Source of the DNA: Loxodes magnus
Lineage: Eukaryota > Ciliophora > Karyorelictea > Loxodida > Loxodidae
Assembly (NCBI GenBank): GCA_946699065.1
Contig: CAMPDV010000229.1
Coordinates: 372,001 to 436,000 of the forward strand
Direction of reading: 5' to 3'
Length of the DNA: 64,000 nucleotides
Made by a program: the position numbers and the translations under genes. This document shows, piece by piece, positions 1,310 through 26,700 of the stretch. The notes beneath the pieces were generated by a model that worked only from the letters and a program-made list of their open reading frames with translations, did no database searches and was not told the origin of the DNA. How positions within the stretch are numbered: position 1 is the stretch's first letter; every line of letters begins with the position of its first letter.

Positions 1310-4300
1310 ATGAACCAAACTAGCTTAATCTTTTAGTTAAGTTTGCTTCTAGCCCTTATTCAAAATTTTTCAAGTCAACTCATTTATTTCTACGTCACCA
1401 CTCCTGAAGTTTCAAACCATTTAGGATTAACTCATCCAAACGGATAAATAAGCAACCCTTTTACTTCCTTATCATAAACTCTGTACAATTTACCTGAAGG
1501 ATCAGAAGCTTAAATTTGATTATCTCCACATAATCATATTTTAGAATGCCTAGCTGAAGACACTTGTGATGAATGTGATGTTTGTGATATTTTGAGAGCA
1601 GGCAATCAGAATAAAAATCCAATGAAAATTATAATTTAAACATTTGACTGCTAAAATAATGAGTAGCATAGAGCAATGTGCTTAAACTCATAAGAAATAA
1701 CCAATTTACTTGTAAACAATCCTAACTTATATCTAAGTTTAAATGGAGACTCTCTTACGCTAAATCACCTAACTATAAGCGGAGAAACCTTAAACCAAGA
1801 ATACTATTAAAACTAATGCACATCCACTATATTGATTAAAGCTGAAAAAGCCTTTCTGGATTTTTATCAAGTAACTATGCAAAACTTTATTTTAGGCTCT
1901 TAAAGCTTTTTATAAATTACTTCTGGAGTAGCTAAATTCGCTAACTTTACTTTGCTAAAAATAGTTACTTCATAAAATGCAATAAATGTAAGAGATGCTA
2001 CTATTGATATTAAAAACTCCTATTTTATTGGAAATTATGGTTCAGTTTTATACAGCATACAAAGTATTTTGTACGTGACTTAATCAAGATTTCTTTATAA
2101 TTAAGCATATCAAGGAAGCTGTATCTTATATGAACTGACAACTTTAATTATTTCAAGATCAATTTTTATATCCAACTACGCAGAAAATAGGGGAGGTGCT
2201 TTTTACGTAATTAAATCGGTTTCATACTTTAGAGATTCTATTTTTGTTAACAACTCAGCCTTATCTTGAGGAGGAGTTGTAGAATCAGTAGGAGATTCAA
2301 ATTATTCTTTTTAAAGCTGCTAGTTTATCAATAATAAAGGAGATATAGGGGGAGCCTTCGACTTAATTATCGATACAATTTTTTTAATTGATGATTGCCT
2401 CTTTTAAGAAAATAAAGCAAATTTAGCTAGCTCAATATCTACCTTTCAAGTTACAATTTATTAAATTTCAAACTCCATTTTCATTTCTAACAGAGCCATT
2501 GCAAGTAGAGGAGTTATTTGGGTTTAATACTCCTTTGTAAATCAACTATACAACTTAACTTTTATCCAAAATGCTGCATAATGGAAGGGAGGAGTTCTAT
2601 ACATATCCTCTTCAACTTACATAAACTCAATAAAAGATTCCATATTTTTGGAAAATAGCGCTGAGAATGGGGGAACACTGAACATATAAGATTAGTCAAT
2701 TGTTTACTCCATTAAGAACTGCTACTTTAGTAATAATAATTCTACAGATGGAGGAACTATACGTTTATAAGATTAAGCAATGAACTCAGTTAACGATAAA
2801 ATGATAATTTAGAATTGTACCTTTATTAATAATCAAGCTAATAACGGAGGCACTTTCAGTTTTCTAAAAGCCATCGTTGAAATCTAGTCCATAAAAGTTA
2901 GAAACAGTTAAGCCATTTATGGTGGAGTTCTAAAAGCAGAATTATCTGAAATAAACATAGTAAACTCAACCTTTACAAACAGCAAATCAACAGAAGGAGG
3001 TATTTTCCATATCAAATTTTCCGAGCTTAATATTTTCCAAGTAGTATGCAGATAAGGTGAAGCATTCAATAAGGGAGGAGTGAGCTTGTTGGAGACTTCT
3101 AGCACCTTGATAGCAGAAAAGAGCGAATTTAGTGAAAACTCTGCAAGTGAAGGATCGTTTATATATGTTTAGGACTCTTAATTTATAATAGAAGATTGCT
3201 AGATTTTTAATAATAATGCTACGTCAACAGGTACAATCTACCTATAGACTTCATTCCTATAGAAAGCAAGCTAATTATAGAATGTAGAGATATTTGATAA
3301 TGAAGCTTATGTTTCTACAATTTCAGTTTATAGAAGTAAATTAATATTAAATGAAGTAATTGTTAGAAATAACAAGGCTAAAGTACTTACTTCAGGTATT
3401 TTAGTTAGAAACTCAGAAGTTAAAATTTCGTTTTCAGTGTTTTAAAACTAAAGTACGAGAGAAGGGTTGTTTATTCTCTGTGATTTCGAAGGTAAAGTTG
3501 AAATAAATAATTCTATCTTTGAAAATGGAGAGTGAGAGTAGGGAGGTTCTATACACTTAATTTAATCCGAACTGATTTTAAATTAAGTATAGCTTTAAAA
3601 TATGACAAGCTAATAAGGAAGTGTAATTTAAGCATTCTCTTCTAAAATAAGAATCCAAAACTCGAACTTTAATAAGATTAATTCCGATTAGTTTTAAGGA
3701 TCTATAGTTTACCTCAAAAACTCTGAAATGGTGACAGAAAATTGCTCTTTTAGTAACTACTTAAATACTGCCATTTACCAAGAAGCAAGCTCTTTAGTTG
3801 TAAGTTTCTCAAATTTTACAAGAGGAGTAAGTAAAGACTTTTATGGATCTGCAATTTATTCACTTAACTCTTAGATAAAGATGATTAATTGCCAATGTTC
3901 AGCGATGTGAGCTTAATCAGGTGGATGCTTTAGCATAATAAATAAAAGACCTGAGAAAGAAAATGAATTTATAGGAAATATTTTCGAATATTGTGTCGCT
4001 TAAGAAAATGGGGGAGTTGGTTACTGCTAAAATAGTAAGATAAAATTTAAAGAAAACAGATTTGAAAATAATAGAATAGAAGGTAATAAATAGTAGGTTT
4101 CAAAAGGAGGAGCTTTAAGACTTACGTGTGATAAAGACTTGATTTGTGAATATTTAGTTGAAAATAATTATTTTATAAACAACTAAATAGTGACTGAAAT
4201 AAGTGAAGGAGGAGCTATTTCATTTTAGGGAGCATTGATTACTCTAATTCCTAATGTTTGAAGTAAAGAAATTTGTTCTTTGTTTTAGAATAATAAAGCT

Positions 4301-7068
4301 TATTATGGAAGTAATTTAGCTTCGTTTGGTTACAAATATAGTAATAATTCAATTACTGACGTTCTATCTCACTGTTACGAAAATATTACTAGCAGAAAAT
4401 GCCTTAATAATATTCCTGGTTTTTCAGTTTCCTAGTTCTAAATTTAAATAGTAGATATATATGGATAGATTGTAAAAAGTGATTCTACTTCTATTATTCT
4501 TGTTTACTCAGATGAAGCTCAACTAGCAGGAAAAAATAGGTTTTAAGCTAATCAAGGAACTTTTGATATTTAAGATATCATCATCAAATCTAAGCCTGGA
4601 GATTTAGTTCATGTATAGTTAGAATCAAATGCAATAGATCAAAAAAATATATTTTATGACCAAAATATGACTAATAAAATGTAAATAGAATTTACTATTT
4701 AGTCATGCTTGGAGGGATAAATTCTCATAGATGGAAATTTATGTCAAAACTGTTTTTATGGATAATATTCTCTGAATAAAAAAGACAAATCTTGCAAGGA
4801 ATGTATGTAAGGAGCAAGATGTTATGGTGGTAATTTAATAGCTCCAGAATAAGGTTACTGAAGAGAATCTATAAGTTCAGATTTTATTCACAAATGTCCT
4901 ACTACAGAAGCATGTTTAGGTACCTATGTAAATAAGATCTGACTTGAAATATATTTTGCGAGTTCTAATGAAAAAGAAAGAATAAACTTGTTAAATGAAA
5001 TAAATTGGAATGGAAGATGTGAAAAAGGATACAAAGGAGTTTTATGTGATGTTTGCGAAGAAAATTGAGCAAAGGATGATTTTAATAAATGTGTAAAATG
5101 CTAAAGTAAAAAATTTTCTATTCTAGTTGCCTTTTTTTCTTAATAGCTTTTGTTGCTTATATACTGTTCATAGTGAAAAAAACTTTAAAATAATCATAAA
5201 GCTCTTATTTTGGTGCTTATTTCAAAATTCTAACCAACCACATACAATATTCAATTCTTATTAAAAATTTCAAATTCAACTGACCAAATATCATTACAGA
5301 GTTATTCAAATTTAACTAAGGATGTCTCATTGCTACTTCCACCACTATAAAAATGGATTGTATTTTAAGTGAAAAAGGAGAATAATAATATTACGATAAA
5401 GTATCTAGTACCATGTTATTTCCTCTTGCAATTTTAATATTTACATTTTTGGTATTATTTTTATGATCTTTGGTAAGAAGAAAACCTTTTAACAAACCAG
5501 TTGCAGCTAGTATAATGACCATCTCATTCTTTCAATCTTATACTAACTTAATTCAAACTATTTTTAACTCCTTAAGTTGCCATTATATATCAGAAAATAC
5601 CTTCGTTCTGAACCCTTATACTGATATAAAATGCTGATAAGGATCTCATAAGCAGTTCGTTTTAGTTTTATCTTTACCAGCCTTCATACTTTATGGAGTT
5701 TTTATTCCTTTCTTAGCATTTTTATATCTCTATAAGAATAGAAAAATCATTTAAAGCTATAAAGTTAAATCCAAATTAGGTTTTTTAACAAATGGATATC
5801 AAGATAAATTCTTTTATTGAGAACTCTTTAAGATGTAGCAGAAGCAAGTTATTTCATGTGTTCTAGTATTTTTGTAGAACTACTCTATAATTTTTTAATT
5901 TTGATGCCTTATTTTAATAATGTTAATCTGTGTTTCCTGCTAAATTAAGTTTTAGCCTTATATAAAGAAAGATCTGAACTCCCTAGAATTGAATTACTTA
6001 CTAATTTCATCTTTCATTCTATACATTGGAATTTATTTTGAATCTGGAGAAAGACAGTTTGTAATAGATTATACTCTATTCGTATTGCTAGTGATAGCGA
6101 ATGGATAATTTCTAATATTTTGATTTAGATAAATAACATTAGAGATAGGATACTCAGTATAAAACAGAACTATTTAGAAAATATTTAGTTTATGCCTTTC
6201 TAATAGGAAAGTTAAATTGCTTGAAACCATTACTAAAATGGAAAGAAAGCAAGCTTTTTCTTAGCAGTAGAAGACCTAAAATCTAATTCAGAAAATTTAA
6301 TCCAAAATAAAAGCGTTTTTTAGCAATCCCATTAAAGTAAATCCAGAATTTGAAGAAGATAGTTTAAGCTATCTGTCTTTAGAAAATAAGCACAGTAGAA
6401 GACTTTACCCACAGTTTGAAGATTAGTAAATAATTACTTTGCTTGAGTAATTAGAATTATCCCTTCTAAAAGATTTTAACTTGAATGACCTTTATTATTT
6501 TAACTGCCTTAGTTTTCGTTAATCATGAAAGAAATATTGAAATAATAGAATTCAAAATTTTCTTCAATAATACGAAAAGTTTCAAGTTCTATTATATTTA
6601 TATGAGAATGAAGAAGAAACTATAAAAAATGATTCATTTTAAAATACTTCTAGATGTAACGAAATTAATGAGCAAACCAAAATAAAAGAAAGTTTTCTTT
6701 AGGATTTTTAGTAATAAGAAAAAATATCAAAGAAAATGAAAATTGGAGATATACCTATCAAGTAAGAAATAAAAGGAAAATATGAATACTAACTAGCGTA
6801 AAATGAAGATGTTGAGGAAGCCTAAATGTTGTAAATAAGATAAAGCAATAATTCAAGCTACTTATTATCATGTAAGAATTAAAATTAAAACTTGCTAACA
6901 ATTTAGGAAAATTAAGAAGAAGAGGAAAAAAATTAAGAAAATATACTTAGTTCTTAAGAAGATTTTATAACATAAGATAAATCAAAAAGTGGATTGAAGG
7001 ATTACAGTATTTCTTTTTAGATTCCATCCTTAAATGAATTTAATAATGCCTTCAAAGACAAAAAATGA
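1310..7068 (+). CDS. surface protein A: beta-helix repeats plus seven-helix membrane domain
   Basis: Large membrane protein of about 1918 codons, start ATG at 1310 (MNQTSLIF), terminal TGA at 7066-7068 after a Lys run. The start matches paralogs B and C and opens a hydrophobic signal peptide. Residues about 150-1080 hold repeats with Gly-Gly-Ala and Phe-x-x-Asn-x-Ala spacing, as in pectin-lyase-fold and Chlamydia-type polymorphic membrane proteins. A Cys-rich module follows (about 1130-1265), then about seven membrane helices and a polar tail. Gln is often TAA or TAG and Trp usually TGA, for example TGA at 2267-2269 where B has TGG. Relative to B and C, one T is missing in the run 5132-5138, just inside the first helix, so the last third is in a shifted frame: either a recent inactivation or a homopolymer error. 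Function is inferred from architecture; ligand unknown. Confidence 0.85.
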
Positions 7069-7399
7069 CAAATTTATTTTTTAAGCACTTTCTCTTTTAT
7101 TAGCAATCATTTTTAATGTTAAATGAATATTTTATAAAATTTTCTATTATTAATAAAATATTTTCTACTTTATATAAAACTAAAAAAATCTCTTACTTGA
7201 TAAAATTCCCAGGAAAAATGGATAAATAAATAAATAATTGATTATAGTGGGTTTGCCATTTTTTAGACTAACTACTTTTAAGTTTAAAGTTAGGTATAAG
7301 TATAGACTTTAAATCTGTTTGGATTTTGTCTATTATAAGTCTTGGTGATTTTTAGGTTATTATTTCTTATCTTTTCCGATAGATTGAATCCCATTCACT

Positions 7400-7950
7400 T
7401 TTTATTGAATTCATTAACCGCCTATTAGATATAAGGAGCTTCACTCTTTAATTGAGTTTTTTTTCTACAAAGTTTATCTTCTTAATAGCAATAGATCCTG
7501 AAAATATTTTTCCATTAGTTTGTTATTATTTTCTTTTATTTTTATTAAAATTGGAAGCAGTTTCTTACTTTGTACCCTGGTCGCTTGCAGTACCAGCATC
7601 TCATTATTTTCCGATATGGAATGAAAGTTGCTGTGGGCTGTTACTCAGCAACCATTGGATCATTCACTTATATTTTTTATAAGAATATGCTTTCAGTTAA
7701 TTCTGCGATATGGTTGAATTTTTCTATTCTGATATTTCCTGGCTGTTTATTCTCAATTTTTTTCTCTTGTGATCTAGCCATCAGATATTCTATTTTTCTT
7801 TCTAGTTCTTATACTATTCTTAGGAGCTTAAAAATTTTCTAATTGCATAACTTGAAGTTCTTAAAGTACTTTTCGATAATCATATTTTGACTAAGATGAA
7901 TCCTTTTAAGAAGAGACTTATTGCAAGAAATTTTCCATTTTTTCTATATA
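7400..7950 (-). mobile_element. retroelement-like coiled-coil/zinc-knuckle ORF fossil, left copy
   Basis: On the minus strand a Lys/Glu-rich, coiled-coil-like reading leads into a knuckle-like motif at 7557-7598 containing CKRPGYKVRNC, followed by a basic Gln-rich tail. This order is typical of Gag proteins of LTR elements and of some LINE ORF1 proteins, which bind element RNA. No reverse transcriptase or integrase is visible nearby. The mirror copy is 48700-49250, and diverged relatives lie at 9800-10571, 13058-13351, 38290-39010 and 40450-41480. It looks degenerate. Family assignment between Gag and LINE ORF1 is open. Confidence 0.5.
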
Positions 7951-8559
7951 GTATATGATAGTAAAAATATCAAAAGATAAACTAAAAAAGCAAGAAATTA
8001 AACTAGAAAATAGAAAAACAAATCACCTAAATTATCATCATCATACAGCTATAAGAAAATTAAATTAATACTTCGATTGAATAAATAGATATTTGAATTA
8101 ACAATAAAGCAGTATATGAGTAGATCAAGAAAATGTAAAAAGTTCTCTACTTTCAAGATTAGCAAATCTACAATTTTTTAGATATATTATGAGAGCAAAT
8201 GACATTTATCGAATAATTGAATTTAAAAGCAACATTGGCAAATTGTTCAAAATAAAGTAGAAGGAAAGATATATCGTTAATTTTATTCAAACTCAATTGA
8301 GGAAATTCAAATTGTAAAAAAAAACTAATACTGATATCTTGACTTCTTGACTAGAAATGGAAATAGAAATAAAAAAATTAATAAAAATATTCGAAAAAAT
8401 TAAAAAATATATAAAAAATGCTGATATAGCAGTATTTTCCATAAAAAACGCTGTATTATCTTTAAATGGCTTAGAGGTAAAAAGATCAATAAGTTTGAAG
8501 AGAATCGCAAAGCTTCATAAAAATAGTAGACAAAAGCAATTTCAGTAAGATGAAGATAA

Positions 8560-9800
8560 AATGGAAATCATCCATTTAAAAAACACAAGGAATCTAACCA
8601 CGATAAAAATTGGAAAGTTAAAATTGGCTTAAAGATATGGGTAAGCAAAAATAATAAAAATTATGATTGCGATATAATCTCTTAATTGATAAAGATAAAA
8701 AGTTAGGCTTAATAAAATAAATATGAATATAGAATATAAAAATAACAATTATTTGATTTAATTGATCACTTATATAAATTAATAGTTGACTTTAATTGTT
8801 AGCTAAATTAATTAAAAATGATTGATTATTATATGAGTTCTAATATATAAAATACAATTTCATAATCCAATATAATTTTAAAATGCTAAAAAAGAGAGTA
8901 ATTTTACTTTATATTAATATTTATCTTATAAATTAAAAATAGAGTCTATTTTTAATTTAGTAATTAATACTAACAATAATTTTAAAATTTGTACATTAAA
9001 TTAAAGAAAATAAATATAAAAGTTCGATTTATCTTAATAAATAATTTTAATAGTTAAATAATAATTAAAAAAATATAAAAATAAGACTTTACTTAATAAA
9101 TAAAATATAATCATTTAATTCTAAAAAATATAGATATTTTATATTAATCCTAAACTTTTACTTTCGAAAATGTTTATCAAATTAATAATAATAAGTTTAG
9201 ATTGATAGTTACTATATAACAATTAATAATATATTTTTATCATTGCTAGAATGATGAAATTAAAAAATGTTCAAAGAGTTTATAAAATTATTAGAGATTT
9301 ATTAATAAATATTTCCTAAATTTTAATAAAATTTCATTTAAGTGGGTTCAAATCTACCCTTTTGCCAACAAGCGTTTTATGCTGAGTGCTAATTGAGATG
9401 ACAAGTTGGATATAAATTTAAAATAATTAATTTGCTATAAGATTGATTATAAAAAATGAAATAAATAAATTAAAAATAATAAAGCTTTAACTTTTTTATT
9501 TAATTAAAATTTCAGAAAGCAAATACATTATGAATTGTATGATTTTTTTATTTCTAACTTGGTTATTAGTCAATATAATAAGTCAAATTATCTAACTCTA
9601 TGTTTCGTCTTAAAATGAGATATTTTGCAAATAAAAAAGTTAAATATATATTTAAGTTTATATTATTTACCTTTAAAATTATTTTTATAAGTTACTATAT
9701 ATCTAAATACAAATTTAAATCTTCGGCGCTCTTGGAGCTATTTCAACCTCTTTTCCGACACCCTCTAGAGGCAAATATCAAGTTTAAATGAATATACATT
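8560..9800. other. AT-rich spacer in left arm
   Basis: Poly-A/T-rich DNA with no gene, RNA or mobile element that I can support. A short T-arm-like string, GTGGGTTCAAATC near 9340, lacks the rest of a tRNA. A stop-free run in the standard code at 9600-9791 is Lys/Phe/Ile-rich and appears to be compositional. The mirror stretch is about 46860-48070. Confidence 0.5.
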
Positions 9801-10571
9801 TCTTCTCCTTGCTAATCATGATTTACTGAGGTATCCATTTGCCTAGGTAATGATTGGTATCTTTCATCTTGTATATTTTTCCAAATTTATTTCAATATAA
9901 TCTTTCTCTTTTAGTTATATCTGATAAAATATCTTCTTTTCTCTTCAACTTCTTCTAGTAGTTTCAGTATTCTTAATTAAATTTTTTAAATTTCTAGCGT
10001 CTTTTTTATAGTTGCGTTCTAGAGTTATAATAATAGAATCTTTTTGCTTCTCGTTTAGGTTTAAATCTTGAAATATTTTCTCCTTCGATTATCATTGGGT
10101 CATTTCCTTATTTTTGTAGGTCCATTTAATGTTGCAATTTTTGCTGGCTTTCTTCTGTTTTTTCTATTTTGTTGACTAGTTCTTTCTGCTTCTATTATTA
10201 GTGTTATAATTAATTGTTCTGGTTTTGTGATTAGTTTCAAAATGCGTTAAGGTCTTTTTCTTAAATCATGAGTCTCGATTTAATTTCCACTGAAAGCTCA
10301 AGTTTTTCAATTAACTTCTTATAGTCTATCTTCAATTTTTTTACCTCTTTCTTAAAGCCCACCACCACTTTTTTCAGCTAATTATAGCTTATTTACTTCT
10401 CTGTGATTCGAGACTTCCGAGCGCATAATACTTTTAACCTATTTCCTAGGCCTTTCTTCAGAAGTGGGAAATTTGATTTAAAGGCTAACTTTTTGGCTTC
10501 CTTTTCCCGATCTAGCTTCTCTAGAATGTCGTTAACTCCTACTTTTATGGAACCACGAAAAATCCTGACAT
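9800..10571 (-). mobile_element. coiled-coil ORF of the zinc-knuckle family, left copy
   Basis: Reads on the minus strand from ATG at 10571 (MSGFFVVPSVNDILEKL) as a Lys/Glu/Gln-rich coiled coil of about 250 residues with an NDPM motif, and ending near a KWIPQ string. The NDPM motif followed by a Lys/Arg/Tyr-rich stretch lines up with the segment before the zinc-knuckle region of the 7400-7950 fossil, so I place it in the same family as a diverged member. Copies occur at 46061-46850 (mirror arm) and 14205-15240 (spacer). It looks degenerate; no enzyme domain is seen. Coding status rests on balanced composition plus conservation among copies. Confidence 0.45.
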
Positions 10572-10985
10572 ATATATTTTTTACTTACTATATGTCTATC
10601 TTTATAAATTAAATGTTCAATTAATTTTTAATATAATTTTAGTAAAATAAAAATTAAAGGAGAATGAAATTAAATAATTAAAATAATTAAAGACAGTAAC
10701 TTATGAAAATTAAATCTAATATTCCAAAATATCAATCTCTGTGAATCTATTTTAATGTTAAAAGAAAATTATTAAACATAGATAAATAGCTTTATATATC
10801 TAAAATATTAAAAATAATTTGCTTTTTTAAGTTTATAAATAAAAATAATTGTGAATAAAATAAAAATGCCTAATAAATAACTTAATAGCTAATAACAATG
10901 CATACAGTATTTTTATAATTATAAAAATACTTACATTCAAAATTATTATATAACAATTTAAGTATTATATAATTCATTTTTTAAA

Positions 10986-11527
10986 TGCATATCGTGCTCT
11001 AGTCAGCCAAGTAGGTAATCCGGTGTAATGTAGACTGCATTACAAATACTCTTGTAATAAATGCCACATCAAATAAGCAAGGGTTTGCCCTTGTGTGATA
11101 AGCCTTAATATTTGAGGGTTCTGTCAATCAGTACGATAATCGGACTAGGAAATACTAAAGTCCAAGTCTCAGAGTTATCCTACCTCTACATATCATTAAT
11201 CTAATCGGGAATTGGAAAAACTTAAAGACATGATTAGTACAAATTATATTTTTAAGTAGAAAGATTTAATTCGGTTGTGACATTTGATACAAGAATCGGA
11301 ATTCTTTCTAATCTCTTCTAACTCCAGCATTCGGAAAGAAATACAAGAATTTTGAGAGTGAAGTTAATAACTTTTTATTTCAAAAATGGAGAAAAAATAA
11401 AAAATGAGCAAAGAGATTACAGGAAGCTAGAAGTATTTCTAAACTTTTTTAACAAAAAAATTTGGATTTTTTTATTAATCTTGGTGAGCCTAATAAAGGT
11501 CAAATCACGTTAATTTATTTATTTAAT
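10986..11527 (+). mobile_element. SINE-like structured element, left arm copy
   Basis: A GC-richer island in AT-rich DNA. Its head (AGTCAGCCAAGTAGGTAATC at 11001-11020) resembles a pol III A box, and a GGGTTCT string occurs about 100 bases on. Hairpins are clear: 11025-11043 (GTAATG/CATTAC), 11079-11092 (AAGGG/CCCTT) and 11142-11163 (GGACT/AGTCC). The 3' end is TTTATTTATTTAAT, similar to the ends of the 13640 and 35300 elements, whose heads also align. The mirror copy is about 45105-45640. A retroposed pol III transcript is the best guess; a structured non-coding RNA gene is the alternative. Confidence 0.5.
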
Positions 11528-12430
11528 CATTTAAAAGCATTTCTTCCAATATTTTTTTCACTGAGAAATTAAAGAAAAAATGGCTCACTAATGCATATAT
11601 GCTATATTATTTACTAATTAAATTATTTTAAATAGCAATAAAATAAAATAAAGAAACATAGTATAATTTACATTATAAATTTCATAGTTTAAATTTTATT
11701 TATTAAAGATAAGTTTCTAAGATAAATCTTAAAAGTTCTTTATCCTTTTTCTAAATATAAATAAGTCTAAAGTTATATTTATATTATTATATTAAAGCGA
11801 ATGCTGAAAGTAAATCTTATAGAAATTTCTTAGTAAACAATATTTAATTAATTTAACTTTGCTATCGAAATTCTAGTAAATGCTAATAATTAAATCTAGT
11901 TAAAAGTTAGAAAGATAAGATATTTAGAATTATCTGAAAAAATGTAAAAATTAGAAGATTAAAAAAGTAAAAAAAAAGAATAAAGTAAACTAATTTAATA
12001 TTACATTTTTAATTAAAATTACTAGAAATTTTCCATTAAAATAATTTTATTAATTATTTTTTATTTCTTTTATATTACTATCTTTATCTATTTAATTTTT
12101 ATAATTTCATTAATTATGGAAAATTAAAATTTGTTTAAAGTTTAATTGTTTGTAAATTAATTATCTTTTTATCTTTTTTAAATAAGTTAAAAAATTAGAA
12201 TTTTCCTCTTTATCTTCCTTCCAAATTTAAAAATATTATATATTCTTATAAAATTTATTTATATTTAATATTTTTTCTATTAGAAACCTAAAAATTTTAA
12301 TCTTTTTTAGTTTGTGATTGTTTTAATCTTTAAGTAATAATAAAATTATAGTTCTATTCAATTAAAGTAATTAAAATTATTTATTTATTTATTTCAGTCT
12401 TAAAATATATTTATGATTTGATTATTAAAT
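11528..12430. other. poly-A/T-rich spacer in left arm
   Basis: Very AT-rich, homopolymer-rich DNA. I see no gene, RNA, promoter or repeat. A TTATATTATTATATT microsatellite near 11780 is longer in the mirror copy (about 44830). Confidence 0.55.
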
Positions 12431-12908
12431 ATTAAGATAATAATATGGGCTTTCTTTTTCAAAGTTTTGACTATGAACTTTCTATTACATCCAATCAAAC
12501 TTTTAGACCTGTCTTTCAATTTAGATAGCAAAAACTTAATAATACTTAACTTTTTATTTAATTTAAAAATGTTGTTAAACTATTACTTAGATAGGATATT
12601 TTATTGGGTATTTTTATTTCCTGCGAGTTTCAGTTTTATTTAAATCTTTCCCTTAAATCAAAAATATTAGGCAATTTCTTCCTATTTGTTAAAGTGTTCT
12701 ATAAATCCTTTGTTTTAATCCTTTAAGTATATTATATTTTTCTCAATTTAATATTACTTCAATAGTTGTTTAAATTCAATTATTAAAATTTAAAGATTTT
12801 ATCTATTTACTAATTCTTAGCTTATTTTATCTAGTTATAAGATTTTATTTTAGAAGAAGGAGTTTATTGCACATTATCAACTTTCTTGCTTTTTTAGATT
12901 TGTTCCAT
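12430..12908 (-). CDS. possible Gln/Lys-rich reading frame, left copy
   Basis: Minus-strand reading from ATG at 12908 (MEQIQKGKKVDNVQQTPSS), about 155 residues, ending in a Trp- and Leu-containing segment (LNWKTGLKVWLDVIES) close to 12450. This frame has a more balanced composition than the other two, but no hard stop exists to test it, and no domain is recognised. It is divergent to the 13058 reading frame, with about 150 bases between their ATGs. The mirror copy is 43721-44195. Weak call. Confidence 0.25.
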
Positions 12909-13057
12909 TTGATCCTGTATCTAAATTTGCTTAGACAAATTCTTTTAGAATTATTTCTGATATTTTTATCTATGTAAAGCAAGATAAAGTAAATACAAAT
13001 TACTATTTAAAATAAATTAAATTATAGCAAAGCTTTTTATTATATTCTATACTTAAA

Positions 13058-13351
13058 ATGGCACCTAAAAGTAGCAATCTCCAAACTAGAGCAACAAAAT
13101 ATAATAAGAAATACAAATAAATTATTAACATTAACAAAACAAAAATCTAAAACTCTAAAAGCAGTCCAAGAGCTTTCAAGCAAAGTTTGAGTTCTAGTTT
13201 AGCAAATTGTTTACCTATACTCAATAATTCAGCAGACTTGAATAAAGAACAATAATAAATTCTGAAAAGTAATAGGAAAGGTAAAATAAAATATGATCCT
13301 ATGGATTTAGAGAAGACAGTGAAAGAAGAAAAAATTAAGCATTATCTATAT
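13058..13351 (+). mobile_element. zinc-knuckle-family ORF fossil cut by the arm boundary
   Basis: Starts at ATG 13058 (MAPKSSNLQTRATKYNKKYK) with a Ser/Lys/Asn-rich N-terminal part. The mirror copy (43571 down to about 42950) continues into a GYNVRNHFKIQQKRQ segment resembling the knuckle region of the 7400-7950 fossil. In the left arm the similarity ends at 13351, so only the N-terminal third is shared. It belongs to the same Gag- or ORF1-like family and is treated as a fossil. Confidence 0.4.
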
Positions 13352-13639
13352 TAAAAAAAGTTGAATTTAATATGAAAAAAAATTCTTATGAATATCTATC
13401 TCTTCTTGGATTATAACTTTATAATTCTTAATTCAAAGTGATTATTAATTTATGCAAAATTTTTATCTTTTTTTCTTTTATATTACTAACTTCGTTTTAT
13501 TTAGTAATAATTTATTGACTCTCATTCATTAATTTTTGCCAGAAGTTAAACTAAATTTTACATATTATAATATAATTTTTGTTTAAAAGATGCTAATTGG
13601 TTGTATGCTAATTTTTTCATTTAATTTATTATATAAAAA
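13352..13639. other. AT-rich DNA between arm end and SINE-like element
   Basis: First bases of the spacer, with no similarity to the corresponding position outside the right arm (43279 and below). Nothing else recognised. Confidence 0.5.
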
Positions 13640-14045
13640 TATGGATGTTGGCTGTGTTCAGGAGAACTAATAGGCAATTTGATGTAGTGTATACTGCATT
13701 GCGTGTAATCTCGCACTAAATGTTTTGTTGGGGAAGGGTGGACAAGCTCAGAAAAGACAAGCCTAGCTTGGTTCTCCCTAGCAGTATGAACATTTTATTG
13801 GCTTATTAATTACTTAACAACTAATTCTTATTTAAATTTATTCAAGAAGACTTTAGCATTTTATTAAAGATTTCGAGAATAATCTTTAATAAGTAGATTT
13901 CCAATTTGGAGTAGCTGACGTGACTCGTTGGGCTACTTGAATTTTAACAAGAAGTATGAAAACGCTTTTTTAATATTAAAATTAAAAGAGTTAAGGGCCA
14001 ACGAGGTGCTACTCGCTCTATATTCAAATTTATTTATTTTCCTTT
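13640..14045 (+). mobile_element. SINE-like element, common-tail family
   Basis: The head GTTCAGGAGAAC, followed by a GTGTATACTGCAT hairpin, aligns with the heads of the 10986 and 35300 elements. A GGTTCTCCCTAGC string downstream could be a B box. The 3' part contains a GAGTTAAGGGCC...GAGGTGCTACTCGCTC block and ends in CAAATTTATTTATTTT, the tail shared with the 35300, 37880 and 19087 elements. It shows several differences from the 35300 copy, so the insertions are not recent. Length about 400 bases, with no protein-coding part. Confidence 0.55.
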
Positions 14046-14204: not shown

Positions 14205-15240
14205 CGAACATAGATTATTCCAGAGGTTTAAAATGAGAGTAAAATGTCTCTACTATTTCTTACATAGTATTACTTCCTTTCTTGAAATTTTTTAATTCTT
14301 TTTTATAATAGTTTCTTTTTTCTTATAAATATTCTCTATTGCATCACGTTATAGTTGCTCTATTTAATTCTATTATTTATTCTAAATTTGTATAATCGTG
14401 TTTTGTGATATGTTTCAGAAGACTCTTAAATCACTTTCTTAAGTCATGAGTCTTATCTCTATATTCTCCGTTATGTTCTCTCCATAAGCATCTTACTATT
14501 TTTTAATATTTTAGAGGTAGCCATTCGCCTAGATAATGATTGGTATCTTTCATCTTTTATATTTTTCCAAATTTGCTAAAATATAATCTTTCTCTTTCTC
14601 TTTTTAGTTTTAGTTGTTGTTGTATCTTCTTTCTATTCTCCAACTTCTTCTAGTACTTCAGTAATCTGAATTAAATTTTTTAAATTTCTAGCGTCTTTTT
14701 TATAGTTGCGTTCTAGAGTTATAATAATAGAATCTTTTTGCTTCTCGTTTAGGTTTAAATCTTGAAATATTTTCTCCTTCGATTATCATTGGATCATTTC
14801 CTTATTTTTGTAGGTCCATTTAATGTTGCAATTTTTGCTGGCTTTCTTCTGTTTTTTCTATTTTGTTGACTAGTTCTTTCTGCTTCTATTATTAGTGTTA
14901 TAATTAATTGTTCTGGTTTTGTGATTAGTTTCAAAATGCGTTAAGGTCTTTTTCTTAAATCATGAGTCTCGATTTAATTTCCACTGAAAGCTCAAGTTTT
15001 TCAATTAACTTCTTATTGTCTATCTTCAATTTTTTTACCTCTTTCTTAAAGCCCACCACCACTTTTTTCAGCTAATTATAGCTTATTTACTTCTCTGTGA
15101 TTCGAGACTTCCGAGCGCATAATACTTTTAACCTATTTCCTAGGCCTTTCTTCAGAAGTGGGAAATTTGATTTAAAGGCTAACTTTTTGGCTTCCTTTTC
15201 CCGACCTAGCTTCTCTCTAGAATGTCGTTAACGCTTCATT
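14205..15240 (-). mobile_element. coiled-coil ORF of the zinc-knuckle family, spacer copy
   Basis: Third copy of the unit at 9800-10571 and 46061-46850, just inside the left arm boundary on the minus strand. The segment 14670-15232 is almost identical to 9974-10540; beyond 14670 the two diverge. This copy reads further than the others, through a Trp/His-containing part (LWREHNGEYRDKTHDL) and a coiled-coil-like stretch to FDGIKLKDLQEYQIF near 14205. No domain is recognised in that extension. Retroelement-like fossil; polymerase not seen. Confidence 0.4.
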
Positions 15241-16370: not shown

Positions 16371-16379
16371 TTAAGGAGT

Positions 16380-17535
16380 TGAGGAATAAACTATTTAAAC
16401 ATTGAAGAGTTAGTTATCAAAATTATTCTTATAAAGTTTTAGGATTCGTACAAAAATAAGCATCTTATAGTCGAGTCTTTAGAAGAAGCGGAATAGAAAC
16501 ATATTTTATGAGCATAAATAAAAAAATATCAGAATAATGCTTTAAGACCTTTTTGCTTTATTAGTTTGAAGAAAACAATCTAGATGTCTCTAGAAAAAAA
16601 TAAAAGATCATAAATATAAAAGGCTAAATACAGAGACAAATTTCCCTATTTTTCATAGTTATTTATAAATCATAGTAATCTACTATATAGCATGATTGCA
16701 TAATGAATGGAAATAGATTAAGTACTAAAGATATAACTTTTTTTTATTTTTCTCAAATCACTAAGTAGAAATTTGAAAATAAAAGAAATTCTATTTAATT
16801 TGGAAATTATTTTAGAATGCAAGCAAAGAAAGATTATAGAGAAAATGATATGAAGTTAAAAGAATAAATAACTTAATCAACAAAAAGCAAAAATCATACA
16901 GACATAAAATATTCTCACTTAGATAGTTATTTTATACTCTAGGATCACTTAGAAAATCAGTCATTCTGATAGATTGCAAGACTTAAAGATATAAATATTG
17001 GCTATCATATAATACAGAAAATAGTTATGAAATATCAAGAATTTAGATTATCTTTATCAGTTAAAATTTCCGCAATTTTTTCTATTAATACTTATTTGAG
17101 CTGGCTATAAGAAAGATTGATTTTAGTTAACGAATAAGTTTCATTTTAGTTACTTAAAATAAAATCTGAAATTACATAAGATGAAGAGTTAAATCTAAGT
17201 TTTTGAGGTTATAAACACTAAATTAATAAGTAGAAAACCAGAAATAGACCGTGTAATGTAAATAAAAGTCTAAAAATATATAAAAATATTTGCTACCGTC
17301 AAGCTTAACATTTTCTAAGTGATTAATTCTTCGTCTCTTTAGATAGAATTATTGATTTGATTATGAGAACGAAATAATACCAAAATGTTGAAATTAGAGA
17401 AAATATATAGACAAAGAATAATTTCTTTAACTTCAAAGAGGGCGATAATAATGGAAGAAATTAAATGGACAGATTTATAAAAATGGATAGAGTTACTTAT
17501 CACCTATATTGTTTTTTAAGCTTTAATTTAAAGAA
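16380..17535 (+). CDS. unrecognised coding candidate
   Basis: One plus-strand frame reads about 385 residues of balanced composition with internal TGA codons in Trp-like settings (for example ENQSFWQIARLKD and NLSFWGYKH). The other two frames are poorer in acidic residues and richer in Lys/Ile/Phe. No signal peptide, membrane segment or known motif stands out; there are Lys/Glu-rich helical stretches. The start is not defined and the region thins into AT-rich DNA after 17535. No paralog in the window supports it, so it may be a degenerate gene or an accident of an open code. Confidence 0.25.
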
Positions 17536-18060
17536 TTTTTTAATTTAATTAAGTTAAAAGTTTCTTATTCCTTAATAATTTTTCTAAATTTATTACCTTT
17601 TATTAATTCTCTAAATTTAGTTGGTTGCTTTTCTAGTTAGAAGTGAATAGGAGTTTTCTTATCTCTTCTCGGAGTTTCTTTAAATATATAAGTGAATTAA
17701 TTATTCTTTTATTTTATCATCTCATAGTCGAAGTAGATTTCATTTAGCCTCTTCTAAAAACATAAGATATATCAGATCATCCAGCCACCTTTAAATTATT
17801 TGTGAGTATTCAAATTTAATAATTATAAATCCGATTAACCTTCACCAACAAAATTTATTTATTAGCTTTAAAAATAAAATAGTGTAGATTATATAAATCA
17901 CTATAAATAGTGATTTAGGAGTATAATAAAGCTAAATAGATTTGAGAGAAGCTGCTAGAGTTATAACTTAGTATAATTAATATGAAATACTAAATTATTT
18001 ATTAATTTAGATACTTGAATACTTAAGAACTTTAATTTTTTTATTATTAATTAATTAAAA
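17536..18060. other. AT-rich spacer
   Basis: No gene, RNA or repeat recognised. Confidence 0.5.
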
Positions 18061-18079
18061 GAAAAATACGAGGCAATGT

Positions 18080-18870
18080 ATGAATTTTAACTATTACCTT
18101 TTTTCTGCTATACGTTAGTATAGTTTCTGTCTGCTCTTTTGATATTTCGATGGCTTAGAACTTGAACTAATGGAATCGATAGACTAAAAAGAATTTAGAT
18201 TATGGATATTATTACAATTCGTGTTTCGAAAGATATGTGGCAAGTTGGAAAAGGGGCTATGAATGCAAATCTTGGTAGGATGAATTGTAATTTTGGCAAA
18301 CTTATTATAGAATAGAAAATACTTCTTGGTGTGTGAAGAAATTTCCTCCTGGATATTATAAATCTTTTAATTACTCAAACTCTTCGTGTACTAAAAATTT
18401 ATAAGACACCTCAACTCAAAGCTAACCTCAAATCATTTATATGGTTTTACCAAGCAAAATATTATTGTTATCCACAAAGTGAAAACTGGCCTCAATACAA
18501 AGAAAACAAGCCTTCTTAAAGTCCTTTCACTCTTCTTTCCAACGACTTAGTAGAATTTTTATCTACTAAATATACTTTAATCCATTTATCCGCAAAAGAT
18601 TCAACAATTAGCGAGCACATTCTTAACCAAGTGAACTTATAAGACTTATATTTTTCCTACTCAGATTCTATCATAATCCAGCTTACCTAATCTAGAATGA
18701 GGTTTTTAACATTTCAGCCTCTCTATTACTCCTATAAATAGTAAAGTCTAAACTTCAGCAAAAGCTTATAGTGCCCCTAAAATGTAAATTAAAAGAAACA
18801 GGCAAATTATCTTAATATAAAGCAAAAATAAAGTTTTAGTTATTTAAATAAATTTATCTATTTAATTTAA
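18080..18870 (+). pseudogene. fragment resembling an extracellular Cys-containing protein
   Basis: Around 18170-18400 the plus strand reads as a Cys/Trp/Tyr-rich segment (YYNSCFERYVASWKRGY, then CVKKFPPGYYKSFNYSNSSC), typical of secreted ciliate proteins. A hydrophobic stretch precedes it (LTITFFLLYVSIVSVC), though I find no in-phase ATG for it. From about 18450 a different frame becomes the better one (SENWPQYKENKPSQSPF), so the gene looks interrupted or spliced. No paralog is present in the window and no family is recognised. Confidence 0.3.
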
Positions 18871-19086
18871 TCATTAATGCTTAGAAATCCTCCGATTTAA
18901 GTAACCTTTATGATTTTAATTTCTTAAATAACTAAATAAGTTGTAATTTTTTCCGTTCTTTAACTCTGAAGACTATCTTTAAGATGAATATTGCTTCAAA
19001 TGAACTGCTGAAGAGTTTCCTTATCTTAAAAAATATATTGGAGACTTAAGTTAAACCAACTATTATAGTGTAATTCCTTTTTATAT

Positions 19087-19590
19087 ATAAATAAATAAAT
19101 AAATTTGATTATAGAGCGCGTAGCACTCTCATTGGTGCGCAGCTCTTTAAAAAAAAAATGTTTCATACTGACAAGAATGTTTGTTACTGATAAAATTATC
19201 AGATACTGATAAATCTTGTTCAATACTGGTATAATTACTCAGTACTGATAAAAATGTTCAATACTGATATAGTTTTAGAATACTCGTAATCTTTAATACT
19301 TGCTGGAGGTCCAGGGACATGGCAGGATTGTGTCCCATTGCATCACCAAAGCAGAGGACGACATGTGTCAATTATGGGTACTTAAATTCCCCACCTCTGA
19401 TGAAGCTCGCAATATTATTTCTTTTTCGTTCCAGAATTAAAAATAAACTGAAATAAGCCAGTGCCGAAGGTCTAAGAATCTTATGTCTCGAGGCCAAGCC
19501 AAAGCAGAGGAAGACATAAAGTCGATTATGGGTACTTAACTTCCCCAACCTCTGATGAAGACGACCTTGTTGTTCACCTTCGAACAACTA
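19087..19590 (-). mobile_element. SINE-like element, hairpin-head type, partly dimeric
   Basis: Reads on the minus strand. The head is a hairpin TTGTTCGAAGGTGAACAA (about 19572-19589), then a block including GGTTGGGGAAGTTAAGTACC. That block recurs in altered form at about 19370-19420, so the head is partially duplicated. Next come about six diverged 19-20 base repeats built on TATCAGTATTGAACA (about 19170-19280), and the common tail GCGCACCAATGAGAGTGCT with AAATTTATTTATTTAT at the 3' end. The sister copy at 37880-38222 has a single head. Confidence 0.55.
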
Positions 19591-19599
19591 TGGCGGTTT

Positions 19600-22500
19600 T
19601 AAAATATATATATAATACTTAATTGAAGTTATTAGTAATTTTATATATAAGCTTTGACGTCATTTAAATATAGTGATATATAATTTCGGACCTTTGAAAT
19701 TAAAAGCATTAATAATAAATTTTCTTATTTAAACTAATTTTATTTGCATTAAACCAAGGATTTAAATGATTTGTTGATATAGTTGTAGATTAAATAATTA
19801 AAGATATGAATTATTATTCCTTCTTATTATTTAATAAAGAGAATTAGATAATTTATACTTAAGTTGCTTTAATTGTATTAGCAAGGAAATTTAGATTCTA
19901 AATATTTTATTCGTAAGTTATTTGATAAACAGCATGAACACTAATCTAATCTTCTATTTATATAATTTATTTATATATTTTACTTAAGCATATCAATATC
20001 TATATTTAGTATATTTCCTTGTTAACGCATATAGCTTAATTAATCTAACTAGAAAGACAAAGATGTAAAAAGAAATGTTTATATTAAAATACTTTTAATC
20101 ATTTTTATAGTTATATTCTGCTTAATTAGGGATTATAAGCAATAGAATTCATTCTAATTTAAGTTTAGTAGCTGTTCTTTATTGAGAACTAAGAGTGTAT
20201 TGGATAATTAATAAGCCTTAACAGTATAAATGCTGAATTATAAATATGAATTTTATTTATTAAACTAAATTGAAAATTAGAAGTATAAAGCTATTTCTAA
20301 AATAAATAAATCCAGATTATTATCATTTTATTACTAACCTATTAATAAATCTAAAGCATATCAACTTAAGTAATTATTCTCTTTATTTAATATAGAATTA
20401 TTTATGGCTTGGTACAATCTCATTTAGAATATTCTTGATGTGAGCATAATTAAATAGCTATAATTTGGATTTATTAATAGTTAAACTTGTAATAAAATGC
20501 ATAATTATAGGTTTTTAATTTTAGAAAATAGAAATAAATAATCTAAATTAATAAACTAAGAACAAGTAGGAATAAAATTCCCTTTTAGAAACTTTTAAGA
20601 TGCTAATATTATTTATTTACGATATAACGATATTCATATTTAAACCAAAGTACACTATATTAAAGCTATCACTATAAATCTAATCTTATATTTATTAAAT
20701 CTAAATAGAGATTTATATTCTTTATTTCCAAATAACTTCTATTTATCAACTTATTATGAAAGGGATCAAATATTAATAGATTAGTTATTAATTAGAATGT
20801 ATAACCAACTTTATATAATTAAGAGACTAAAATATTCAGAATTAGATTAAGGTGAAACTATCCTCAATAACTTAAATAGAAAGGTAAAATTATTTTATTT
20901 TCTTTACATTATATATTTAAAACTATTTTGCATGCACAATCTTTATTTCTTCTTTAGATGAAAGTTTCTTTAAAGAAAGCAAAACTTAATTGACTTTGAC
21001 TGTAGCTCTTATTTTTATAGATTTTTCTTGATATAGAGTGATAAAGCTTACCAATAACTAGTTATGACCTTTATTATTTTATACTTCTAGCTTACATATA
21101 ATAATGATGTGATTTCATATAACAGTGGCTAAAGGATTTATCATAAGAGATAAGGTTATTTATTTTTAAATATATAATGAATCATTAGATTTAATTATAT
21201 AGTTTGCAATAGACAGGAAATCTCTCTTAATTCTTCACTTTTATTTTCAGAAAATCAAATATACAGTTTTTAAGACAGAAATACCACTATCTTCTAATTA
21301 AACTAAATTAGAGGATAAATCTTGAAGTGATTAAAGCAAGGCTATTTAAATAAAATTGAAGAATTTAGTAAAATGACTTATATCTTGAACTAGATGAAAT
21401 AGTTCTGTTATTTTATTCTTTCAACTAATTTTATTTTAGCCCTATGATAAAATTATTTAGTTCATTTAATAGAATTTTTTTTATTATTTTAATATGTGAA
21501 ATCCTAATCCCTGGCTGTAAAATTGCTATTATCATCAGTGATGCTAATGACTTAATTTATTTGAATCTAATCTGAAGATAATAAATCTCTATTTATAAAG
21601 CTTGAATATCAACTATTAAATTTACAAAATATAGCTAAATATTATTTAAGATACATGCTACTCATAAAATAGCTATGCATGTAATTTATCTAGTGGCTTT
21701 TTTACTAATATATTTAAACAAAGATGATTAAACTAAGTGGCTTACGCTCTTAACTAATATTCTATAAACTGAAAATTTTAAGTTAGTTGTTTATCTTAAT
21801 TTCTACATTAAAATAATTTTATAATTTTCAACTACATTCATTTGTTACTAATAGTCCTACGTACTAAAAAGAAAGAATAACTAATAAATAGTATCCTATA
21901 TCTGGTATCTTAAATAAAATAATAGCACTTATCTATTACTAACTTCATTATGCTTTTAAGGTTTAAGATTCATATGAGTCATATATTAGATAGGAAATAA
22001 GACAAAAGCGTCTTACACTCTTGTCTTAGTTTAAATATTAAGCATAAGCAACTTTTAAATTTATTTATTCAACCTTTATATTTTAAAATAGCCCAAGATA
22101 AACCAAAATTTACTTAGAAAAAATTAAAAAATTACAATAGTTGCTTACCTAAAAATAAAGTAGATGAACATATGGATTGCTTATTCAGATAAGTTATTAA
22201 ATTTTAGATACTTGAGTTATAATATAAAAGGTTAGATTTGTTTAATATAGAAATAGTTGATGTACTTATAGATATGCTATTAGGATATATAGATAGTAAT
22301 AGCTTTAACTATTTCTATTTATTATTTAATTTAATCTTATAATTCCTGTATATCTATATATGCTTCTAGGCTTATTATTTATTAAAGCTAGATTGCACAT
22401 TCCTTGTATTATTGCACTTTGAATAGAATGGAAATGCTGCTTAGTTAATAGGCTAATAAAAAATGTAATAAAATAACTATTGAAGCTAATTAGATTTTTA

Positions 22501-23700
22501 CAATTGATTGCTTAAAATTTAATTTAATAGTTTTAAGGAAATAAGGAAAGTATGCTATTAATAAATATAACTTGCAAACTTCTATTTGAAGATGATAAAT
22601 TAATTATTGCTAATGCATTTTAAAAGAGCTTAGAAGGAGATTATAAATAAACAGTTTAATATTTATTAGATATTTTTAATTAGTTAATTACAAGTTATAG
22701 TCACTTGCTTTAAGAAAATAAGGACAAACATTACTAACTTACTTGAAAGCCTTTTTACTCATAATAGCTATTATTTTTGACTTAATTAAAATATTTCTAA
22801 AGTATATATCTAAGATATTTGGAAAATGTATTTAGAAGTATAGATTTTCTATAGAACTAGACTTGCAAGAAAATTGATTTGGATAGAAATTAAATAGACT
22901 GCTATTTAAATTAGCCTACTAAGAAATGCTAGCTTTTAAGTTCTCTATTTAATTAAGGAAATTTTAAACTAAAGCTTGTATATTAATAGAAAATAAATAA
23001 TCTTATCATTATTTTAAATTGGTTATTTAATATGCTGAATGTATTTAAAAAGACCTACTAAATTATACAGTTTGATTGCTTCTAGAAACAGCGCGTGATT
23101 TATTTTCAATTACTTACGAAATTTCCTTCTGCTACAATAACTTTGACCTCTTAAAGCTAATATTAAAAACCTGGCAACTATCAGTTTATGATTTTCTAAA
23201 AATAAAATTTATCATCAGGTATAGCAATGAAATAGATTTACTTAGATATTATTTAGAATTCGTTAATCCTTTGCTTAGCTTTAATTGTAATAAAGCAATC
23301 AATTAGCTTTATTCTTTAGTACTTCTTAGAGCATAATAAAGCTTTTAATTTAGTAAGTAATTTTTTAAGCATTAAAAGGAAATTATCATCAAGTCTATTA
23401 TAAGCTTATTTAATAGATTCATTTCAGAATCTCATCTATGAATCCTTCTTTAACTTACACTCTTTTTTATAAAATAATAAATTCATTATAGCTATAATAA
23501 TAAGCTAGGATCTTAATTCTTCCTTGTAGTAATAATTCTAAAAAATAAAAAGGAAAAACAGAATTTGAGTGAATATTTGTTGTTTAGATAAAGCATAAAA
23601 TTAGAAGAATTAGATGAGAACAAATAAATAAAATAGAGACTAGAAATATTCTATTTATTACTAACCTTATTTATACTTTAAATACCTAGCCTTTAAATTC
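19600..23700. other. long AT-rich block upstream of gene B
   Basis: About 4.1 kb with few homopolymer runs and intermediate GC, unlike the poly-A/T spacers. From about 22400 some plus-strand frames read as balanced protein-like sequence (for example LLFEDDKLIIANAFQKSLEG at 22579-22638, and YLLFRQSIKLEELDENK just before gene B). The favoured frame changes along the way and no start or domain is visible. It could be one or more large, possibly decayed genes, or non-coding DNA of unusual composition. Confidence 0.25.
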
Positions 23701-23724
23701 TTTATTTTCATCCTTAGCAATAAA

Positions 23725-26700
23725 ATGAAGCAAACTAGCTTAATCTTTTAGTTAAGTTTACTTCTAACTCTTATTCAAAACTTTCAAAGCCAGCTCATTA
23801 ACTTCTATGTCACCATTCCTGAAATTTCTAATCTTCTGGGATTAAATCACCCGAGCGGGTAAATAAATAACCCCTTTACTTCATTGTCGCAAACTATTTA
23901 TAGCTTACCTGAAGGAGCCGATGCTTAAATTTGAATATCTCCACATCAACATGATCTAGAATGCCTAGCAATAGACACTTGTAACGAATGTGATGTTTGT
24001 GAGATTTTAAGAGCTAATAATTAGAATAAAAAGGCAATGAAAATTATAATTTAAACATTTGACTGCTAAAATTATGAGTAGTATACAGCTATGTGCTTAA
24101 ATCCTTAAGACTAAGCATTCTTACTAGTAAAAGATCCTAACTTATATTTGAGTTTAAACGAAGACTCTCTTTGGTTAAAAAACATTACTATAAGTGGATA
24201 AATCTAAAATCAAGTATGCGATTAAAAGTAATGCACCTACAGTACATTCATTAGATCTAAAAAAGCTTTTATAGATCTTTATAAAGTAACTGTGCAAAAT
24301 TTCAATTTAGGCTCTTCAAATTTTTTTTCATTTACTTCAGGAGTAGCTTAATTTACTAATTTCACTTTGCTGAATATATTCACTTCATCAAGTGCTTTAA
24401 GTGTAAGAGATGCTGCTATTGATATTAAAAACTCCTATTTTATTGGAAATTCTGGTTCAGTTTTATACAGCTTACAAAGTATTTTGTACGTGACTTAATC
24501 AAGATTTCTTTACAATTAAGCATATCAAGGAAGCTGCATCCAATATGAATAAACAACTACAATCATTTCTGACTCCGTCTTTAAATTTAACCATGCAAAT
24601 GATAGAGGAGGGGCATTTTATGTTTCTAACTCAGATTCATATTTTATAGCCTCTACCTTTATTAATAATTTCGCATTTTTTTGGGGAGGAGTTGTAGAAT
24701 CAGTAGAATATTCAAATTGAACAATTTAAAGTTGCTAATTTATCTAGAATAAAGGATATTTTGGAGGAGTGCTAGACTTTGGTATAGATACAGTTAATCT
24801 AATAGATAATTGTGTCTTCTTAGAAAATGAAGCTGATTATGCTAGCTCATTTTCTTCTTATCAAGTTCTTATACATTAAATTTCAAACTCCATTTTCATC
24901 TCTAACAGAGCCATTCAGAATGGAGGGGGTATTTGATTTGAATACAACACCATAAATATATTATACAACCTTACATTTATTCAAAATGATGGATAATGAA
25001 AGGGAGGAGCTCTTTACATATCATCCTAGACTAACATAAACTCAATAGAAGACTCCATATTTTTGGAAAACAATGCTGAAAATGGAGGAGCAGTGAGCAT
25101 ACAAGATTAGTCAATTGTTTATTTGATGAAAAATTGCTACTTTAGTAATAATAACTCTACAGATGGAGGAGCTATACGTTTATACGATTAAGCTAAGAAC
25201 TCAGTTAACGACATAATGATAATTTAGAATTGTACCTTTATTAATAACCAAGCTGTTAACGGAGGCACTCTTATCTTTCTAAAAGCCATCGTCGAAATCT
25301 AGTCCATAAAAGTTAGAAATAGTAATGCCATTTATGGAGGAGCTCTAAAAGCAGAATTATCTGAAATAAACATAGTAAACTCAACCTTTATAAGCAGCAA
25401 ATCAACAGAAGGAGGTATTTTCCATATCAAATTTTCCGAGCTTAATATTTTCCAAGTAGTATGCAGATAAGGTGAAGCATTCAATAAGGGAGGAGTGAGT
25501 TTTTTGGACACTTCTAGTAGAATGATAGCAAAATAGAGTGATTTCAGCAAAAACTCTGCAAGTGAAGGATCGTTTATATATGTTTAGGACTCTTAATTTA
25601 TAATAGAAGATTGCTAGATTTTTAATAATAATGCTACGTCAACAGGTACAATCTACCTATAGACTTCATTCCTATAGAAAGCAAGTTAATTATAGAATGT
25701 AGAGATATTTGATAATGAAGCTTATGTTTCAACAATTTCAGTTTATAGAAGTAAATTAATATTAAATGAAGTGGTAAGTAGTAATAATAAGGCTAAAGTA
25801 CTTACTTCAGGTATTTTAGTTAGAAACTCAGAAGTTAAAATTTAGTTTTCAGTGTTTTAAAACTAAAGTACAAGAGAAGGGTTATTTATTCTCTGTGATT
25901 TCGAAGGTAAAGTTGAAATAAATAATTCTATCTTTGAAAATGGAGAGTGAGAGTAGGGAGGTTCTATACACTTAATTTAATCCGAACTGATTTTAAATTA
26001 AGTATAGCTTTAAAATATGACAAGCTAATAAGGAAGTGTAATTTAAGCATTCTCTTCTAAAATAAGAATCCAAAACTCGAACTTTAATAAGATTAATTCC
26101 GATTAGTTTTAAGGATCTATAGTTTACCTAAAAAACTCTGAAATGGTGACAGAAAATTGCTCTTTTAGTAACTACCTAAATACTGCCATTTACCAAGAAG
26201 CAAGCTCTTTAGTTGTAAGTTTCTCAAATTTTACAAGGGGAGTAAGTAAAGACTTTTATGGATCTGCAATTTATTCACTTAACTCTTAGATAAAGATGAT
26301 TAATTGCCAATGTTCAGCGATGTGAGCTTAATCAGGTGGATGCTTTAGCATAATAAATAAAAGACCTGAGAAAGAAAATGAATTTATAGGAAATATTTTC
26401 GAATATTGTGTTGCTTAAGAAAATGGGGGAGTTGGTTACTGCTAAAATAGTAAGATAAAATTTTTAGAAAACAGATTTGAAAATAATAGAATAGAAGGTA
26501 ATAAATAGTAGGTTTCAAAAGGAGGAGCTTTAAGACTTACGTGTGATAAAGACTTGATTTGTGAATATTTAGTTGAAAATAATTATTTTATAAACAACTA
26601 AATAGTGACTGAAATAAGTGAAGGAGGAGCTATTTCATTTTAGGGAGCATTGATTACTCTAATTCCTAATGTTTGAAGTAAAGAAATTTGTTCTTTGTTT

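Follow-up and report, generated by a model that had tools for sequence, protein, structure and literature searches.

The window analysed here, 64,000 nucleotides of contig CAMPDV010000229.1 (assembly GCA_946699065.1, positions 372,001 to 436,000), holds three related genes, A, B and C, whose codons, together with those of genes elsewhere in the same genome, point to the published genetic code of karyorelict ciliates. Read with TAA, TAG and TGA as sense codons, gene A spans 1310–7068 on the forward strand (terminal TGA at 7066–7068), gene B spans 23725–29469 on the same strand (terminal TGA at 29467–29469), and gene C spans 49615–55374 on the reverse strand, its terminal TGA (49615–49617) appearing as TCA on the forward strand; the ATG codons of A (1310) and B (23725) were located by counting back from the codons described below. 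B is open from its ATG to the terminal TGA over 1,914 codons and C from 55374 over 1,919. The internal codons of B include 19 TGA, 5 TGG, 74 TAA, 35 TAG and 44 CAR, and those of C include 16 TGA, 3 TGG, 80 TAA, 32 TAG and 37 CAR. Under bacterial table 11, by comparison, the 64 kb window yields no open reading frame of at least 150 amino acids. Gene A is one base short relative to B and C within a T-run at 5132–5138, so that it is not in frame from ATG 1310 to the terminal TGA and the final third of the gene falls in a different frame, where the tail is still recognizable; the loss may be a real frameshift or an assembly error.

An initial annotation of the window, made from the sequence alone, had noted aligned codons of A and B that exchange TGA with TGG, TAA with CAA and TAG with TAA, and all eight of these codons were found where it placed them, on the forward strand. 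Codon 320 is TGA in A (2267–2269) and TGG in B (24682), codon 404 is TGG in A (2519–2521) and TGA in B (24934), codon 338 is TAG in A (2321–2323) and TAA in B (24736), and codon 1125 is TAA in A (4682–4684) and CAA in both B (27097) and C. The AT-rich genome from which the window derives (705,730,643 bases in 7,843 contigs) contains further members of the same family: a DNA search with gene A, in which 40 out of 597 candidates were scored, revealed at least 43 matching stretches, some of them pieces of a single copy, and 22 of the 43, namely the three window genes and 19 further copies, were aligned. Among these, codon 320 is TGA in 16, TGG in five and TAC in one; codon 404 is divided evenly between TGA and TGG (11 each); and codon 1125 is TAA in 18, CAA in three and CTA in one. 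Codon 338 (6 TAA, 6 TAG, 6 TCA, 2 GAA, 1 ACA and 1 TCT) changes fast and therefore says little about glutamine.

Across the whole alignment, TGA occurs in at least five copies at 21 codon columns, 13 of which also contain TGG, while the other one-step neighbours of TGA are rare in these columns (TAA in 3, TTA in 2, and AGA, TGC and TGT in 1 each). In the same 22 copies, AGG accompanies AGA in 12 out of 51 columns, GGG accompanies GGA in 19 out of 72, and TTG accompanies TTA in 44 out of 104; the pairing of TGA with TGG exceeds chance. The absence of a tryptophan preference at TGA positions had been named in advance as grounds for abandoning the tryptophan assignment, and the preference is present in these columns. 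Within the 20 columns containing TGG, TGA fills 176 out of the 321 remaining cells, a count of cells that are not independent events since the copies are kin by descent. For TAA, 107 columns hold it in at least five copies, and CAA is present in 42 of them, AAA in 33 and TAG in 29.

Genes outside the family gave the same assignment. A search of the genome with the PF00069 profile, from which the best 136 domains out of 5,592 candidates were scored, found at least one in-frame TGA in 91 of the 136 kinase domains, with 157 TGA codons in total by a hand-copied tally. Of these domains, 24 were aligned, comprising 20 chosen for holding TGA and the four top matches. The tryptophan column of the DxWSxG motif contains 15 TGA and 9 TGG codons and no other residue; the HPW column contains 8 TGA, 10 TGG and a single F; and a third tryptophan column contains 10 TGA, 5 TGG and a single P. 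These three conserved columns account for 33 of the 51 TGA codons in the alignment. The proposal that internal TGA encodes tryptophan is thus borne out both in the family and beyond it.

Two other explanations of the internal TGA codons can be weighed against these columns. The first places them within short introns or has them skipped, and it draws on the very short introns reported for L. magnus (mean 19.3 bp, in the excerpted text of PMC11441545); nevertheless, other copies have TGG at the codon that aligns with TGA (11 out of 22 at codon 404), and the kinase motif in which tryptophan is TGA in 15 out of 24 domains continues in frame on either side, which makes this account extremely improbable. 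The second assigns TGA to another residue, either cysteine or selenocysteine. Family column 1533, with 8 TGC, 7 TGT and 7 TGA, speaks for such an assignment, but it is the one column with TGC or TGT out of the 21 rich in TGA, against the 13 with TGG, and the three kinase columns depart from TGA and TGG in only two out of 59 cells. We accordingly find a cysteine or selenocysteine meaning scarcely tenable and retain tryptophan.

The glutamine assignment of TAA and TAG was also seen in the gene for eRF1, the translation termination factor. The gene lies on contig C196 (L031:569-1879) and encodes 436 residues, with 13 TAA, 7 TAG, 8 CAR, 4 TGG and no TGA codons inside, and it ends at TGA, followed by two further in-frame TGA codons within five codons. 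Its product aligns with residues 6–430 of the solved eRF1 1dt9, which we take to be the human protein, at E = 8e-159. TAA or TAG encodes the glutamines in GTLQGN, the catalytic GGQ, DQR, FNQA and both of those in SQEGSQF, at all of which 1dt9 also has glutamine; the codon in GGQ is TAA. In a second copy on the same contig (L048), the GGQ glutamine is again TAA and the gene likewise closes with TGA. Taken with codon 1125 of the family, these sites support glutamine as the meaning of TAA and TAG. The best match to the eRF1_1 profile (L029) had been considered as the eRF1 gene and was rejected, being a Dom34/pelota paralogue as judged by eye. In 1dt9 numbering, the stop-recognition region carries the changes E55A, T58R, S60Q, S70A and Y125F, while NIKS is kept. 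Ciliates in which UGA is not translated can have such changes at position 70 too, and alanine at this position is therefore weak evidence. Both eRF1 copies share the altered stop-recognition motifs and the extra in-frame TGA just past the terminal one.

A common terminal TGA had also been proposed for the three genes of the window. It is present in A, B and C, each time preceded by a short Asp-Lys run, although A arrives at it in a shifted frame. The ends of three of the 22 copies were unreadable, one being too short (L003) and two having lost similarity (L018 and L020). Among the 19 readable copies, 13 have the shared terminal TGA (A, B, C, L011–L017, L019, L023 and L024), some of them reaching it only after an indel further upstream has shifted the frame, and the other six differ; in one of the six, L022, TAA comes first and TGA follows a few codons on. 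These numbers come from reading copy by copy, and a strict count of the terminal-codon column gives only 9 TGA because an A-run ahead of that codon varies in length. TGA thus serves as the gene-end terminator in both eRF1 copies and in 13 out of 19 family copies. Of the internal TGA columns, the one closest to the end precedes it by 24 codons (column 1896 versus 1920), a distance that derives from few, related genes.

A candidate reader of internal UGA was found in a tandem array of tRNA-Trp genes at G000:C148:155434-166515 (L045–L047 and L049), repeated about every 241 bases. The array consists of 40 near-identical copies, 39 in one orientation and a single one in the other, as counted among the best 40 of 137 candidates in a DNA search. 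Three copies fold as tRNA-Trp(CCA) with a T27 × C43 mismatch that shortens the anticodon stem to 4 bp, the rest of the cloverleaf being good; in the part of the array that was read, five copies are identical to one of the three drawn, and four of the five are new. Judged by this predicted fold, the genome possesses a tRNA-Trp of the type known to read UGA. A T-run lies 3' of all three copies whose 3' flank was viewed. A query with a UCA anticodon returned no exact match to tRNA-Trp(UCA), the best 40 of 137 candidates all being one mismatch off, in a search that reaches near relatives of the query and leaves diverged backbones outside it.

From these lines of evidence we conclude, with a probability of about 96%, that the DNA of the window comes from the macronucleus of a karyorelict ciliate, Loxodes magnus being the likeliest species, and is read with the karyorelict code already published as NCBI table 27: TAA and TAG encode glutamine, and TGA encodes tryptophan inside genes and stop at their 3' ends. 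The sense meanings, from alignment, as well as the terminal TGA and the tRNA-Trp(CCA) with a 4-bp stem, are all found in this genome.

Several observations weigh against this conclusion. When all 46 family columns with any TGA are considered, the commonest other residue is glutamine (106 out of 605 cells), with tryptophan second (101), although many of these columns hold TGA in merely one to five copies. In the kinase alignment, 18 of the 51 TGA codons are spread over 12 columns, out of 15 containing TGA, in which tryptophan is not conserved. The terminal TGA is absent from five of the 19 readable family copies (L021 and L025–L028). tRNA-Gln(UUA) was not found with five glutamine queries of the genome, a negative of little weight given the small number of backbones that the queries covered. 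Contig C110 also has genes resembling tRNA-Trp(CCA) whose stem is 5 bp long; the first of them to be found spoke against the known mechanism until a second search uncovered the 4-bp-stem array on C148.

Finally, nine of the 22 family copies, including A, carry frame-breaking indels relative to B, so that pseudogenes or assembly errors may be among them. The indels are the basis for the alternative that the copies are decaying pseudogenes or misassembled and that their in-frame TGA, TAA and TAG codons are ordinary stops. We consider this very unlikely in view of the long open frames of B and C, of the 13 out of 22 copies without a net frame shift relative to B up to the terminus, and of the use of the same codons by kinases and eRF1. 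Substitutions also argue for coding sequence: over the last 1,500 bases, B and L012 differ by 60, 33 and 96 changes at codon positions 1, 2 and 3, a bias not seen in every pair (11, 12 and 11 between L019 and L013).

The copies without a terminal TGA raise a further possibility, namely that UAA is also dual in this genome, encoding glutamine internally and serving as stop in a minority of genes, among them L025–L028 and, singly, L021, where the terminal TGA has been lost. L021 has TAA where the terminal TGA is expected, and L025, L026, L027 and L028 have in-frame TAA within a few codons of the shared terminus; internally, these five copies contain 71–77 TAA codons. Four pairs among L025–L028 differ over their last 1,500 bases by indels of 3 or 6 or by none, while over the next 250 bases three of the pairs differ by 1-base indels and the fourth by none. 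This shift in indels across the terminus fits a coding stop at about that point and suggests that UAA can terminate. In the excerpted L. magnus text, moreover, UAA, like UGA and not UAG, is depleted over the approximately 20 codons before stops (PMC11441545). On the other side, an in-frame TGA about 40 codons past the TAA would permit read-through, the terminus adjoins an A-run whose length could be misassembled, and L021 has an upstream 1-base shift as well. On balance, a dual UAA is a tentative suggestion that we regard as somewhat doubtful; in some members of the family the stop may have changed from UGA to UAA, and if so, the family would represent a natural series for a stop moving between ambiguous codons. 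Seah et al. 2022 reportedly proposed a minority stop UAA for karyorelicts.

As for the preferred reading, in which UGA is both tryptophan and stop, the mechanism known from the literature would apply here as follows. The tRNA-Trp(CCA) with the mismatched stem would read UGA as a near-cognate codon and would normally outcompete eRF1, while at a terminal UGA, where a short 3' untranslated region (3'UTR) rich in A and U brings the poly(A) tail near, eRF1 would win and translation would terminate. The 60 bases past the terminal TGA have a GC content of 18.3% in A and likewise in B, as compared with the published 18.6% of L. magnus 3'UTRs.

Compared with other reassigned codes, Euplotes shares with this genome a reassigned UGA in a ciliate and differs in its meaning, UGA being cysteine in Euplotes and tryptophan here. 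Table 27 as used by the karyorelicts Parduczia and Loxodes is matched in glutamine from TAA and TAG, in TGA as both tryptophan and stop, and in the AT-rich 3' flank; the only possible difference is the UAA stop in some family copies, and nothing is shown to differ. According to the excerpted text of PMC11441545, the L. magnus macronuclear assembly comprises 706 Mbp and uses table 27, with short 3'UTRs of 18.6% GC, and position-dependent TGA, described in the initial annotation as established for karyorelicts, is indeed published, including for L. magnus. The code was described for Parduczia and Condylostoma by Swart et al. 2016 (PMC4967479). PMC13092985 and PMC12005148 credit Swart et al. with the 4-bp tRNA-Trp(CCA) of Loxodes. 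Condylostoma magnum resembles the present case in its dual UGA, its tRNA-Trp(CCA) with a 4-bp stem and termination near the transcript end, but all three codons are also stops there (PMC4967479), whereas TGA is the main stop here. The trypanosomatid Blastocrithidia also reads UGA as tryptophan through a tRNA-Trp(CCA) with a 4-bp stem and has a changed eRF1 Ser70 (glycine there according to PMC12153298, alanine here), while it differs in translating UAR as glutamate and in its UAA stop (PMC12153298).

The code found here is already known and carries no novelty. What the analysis adds is modest, namely that the code has been verified independently from the raw sequence and that a gene family is described whose tryptophan codons, as in B, are more often TGA than TGG. 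The code breaks the rule of one meaning per codon, since stop versus sense can hinge on the place of a codon in the message.

The remaining tRNA results concern the search that had been suggested for decoding tRNAs, which succeeded in part: two glutamine-backbone genes with CUA were identified, while UUA and tRNA-Trp(UCA) were not found in limited queries. Among 30 sampled loci with glutamine backbones, 24 have the anticodon CUG, three UUG, one CGG and two CUA; the CUA genes lie on C1963 and C1453, and one that was drawn has a mismatched first acceptor pair. The CGG (Pro) anticodon is carried by L084. On C110, three related genes have CCA, a 5-bp stem or nearly so and mismatched T-stems, and two others carry other anticodons; the tRNA-Trp-like backbone of this contig also occurs with Arg(CCT) and Met(CAT) anticodons (L043 and L044). 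ARAGORN called no tRNA on a tRNA-Trp-like gene of C7736 and none in the 64 kb window. RF00005 matched 63 places out of 42,786 candidates in the genome, and the eight sampled were all tRNA-Lys(TTT), so this search could not reveal tryptophan or glutamine tRNAs. Regularly spaced tRNA matches, of which few copies were read, were seen on C78, C103 and C158 (about 527 and 1,753 bases, sampled as tRNA-Lys(TTT)) and on C112, C341 and C665 (tRNA-Gln(CUG) every 1,264 bases, tRNA-Gln(UUG) about every 2,340).

Members of the family to which A, B and C belong appear, when read by eye, to encode a signal at the N terminus, a stretch rich in cysteine and, toward the C terminus, several membrane segments. 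The name 'surface genes' given to them in the initial annotation came from the look of the sequence only; neither Pfam with B and C nor PDB with B returned a match above cut-off. Its statement that A and B lose similarity right after the terminal TGA does not hold, as BLAST similarity stops at 6616, about 450 bases ahead of the shared TGA, and the stretch from there to the TGA is a fast-changing tail that is still alignable. Genes A and C lie in the arms of an inverted duplication of about 13.4 kb (1–13350 and 43279–56684) that are about 98% identical, with B between the arms. A 0.7 kb interspersed repeat, 94–95% identical, occurs at 9828–10536, 14514–15236 and 46084–46796.

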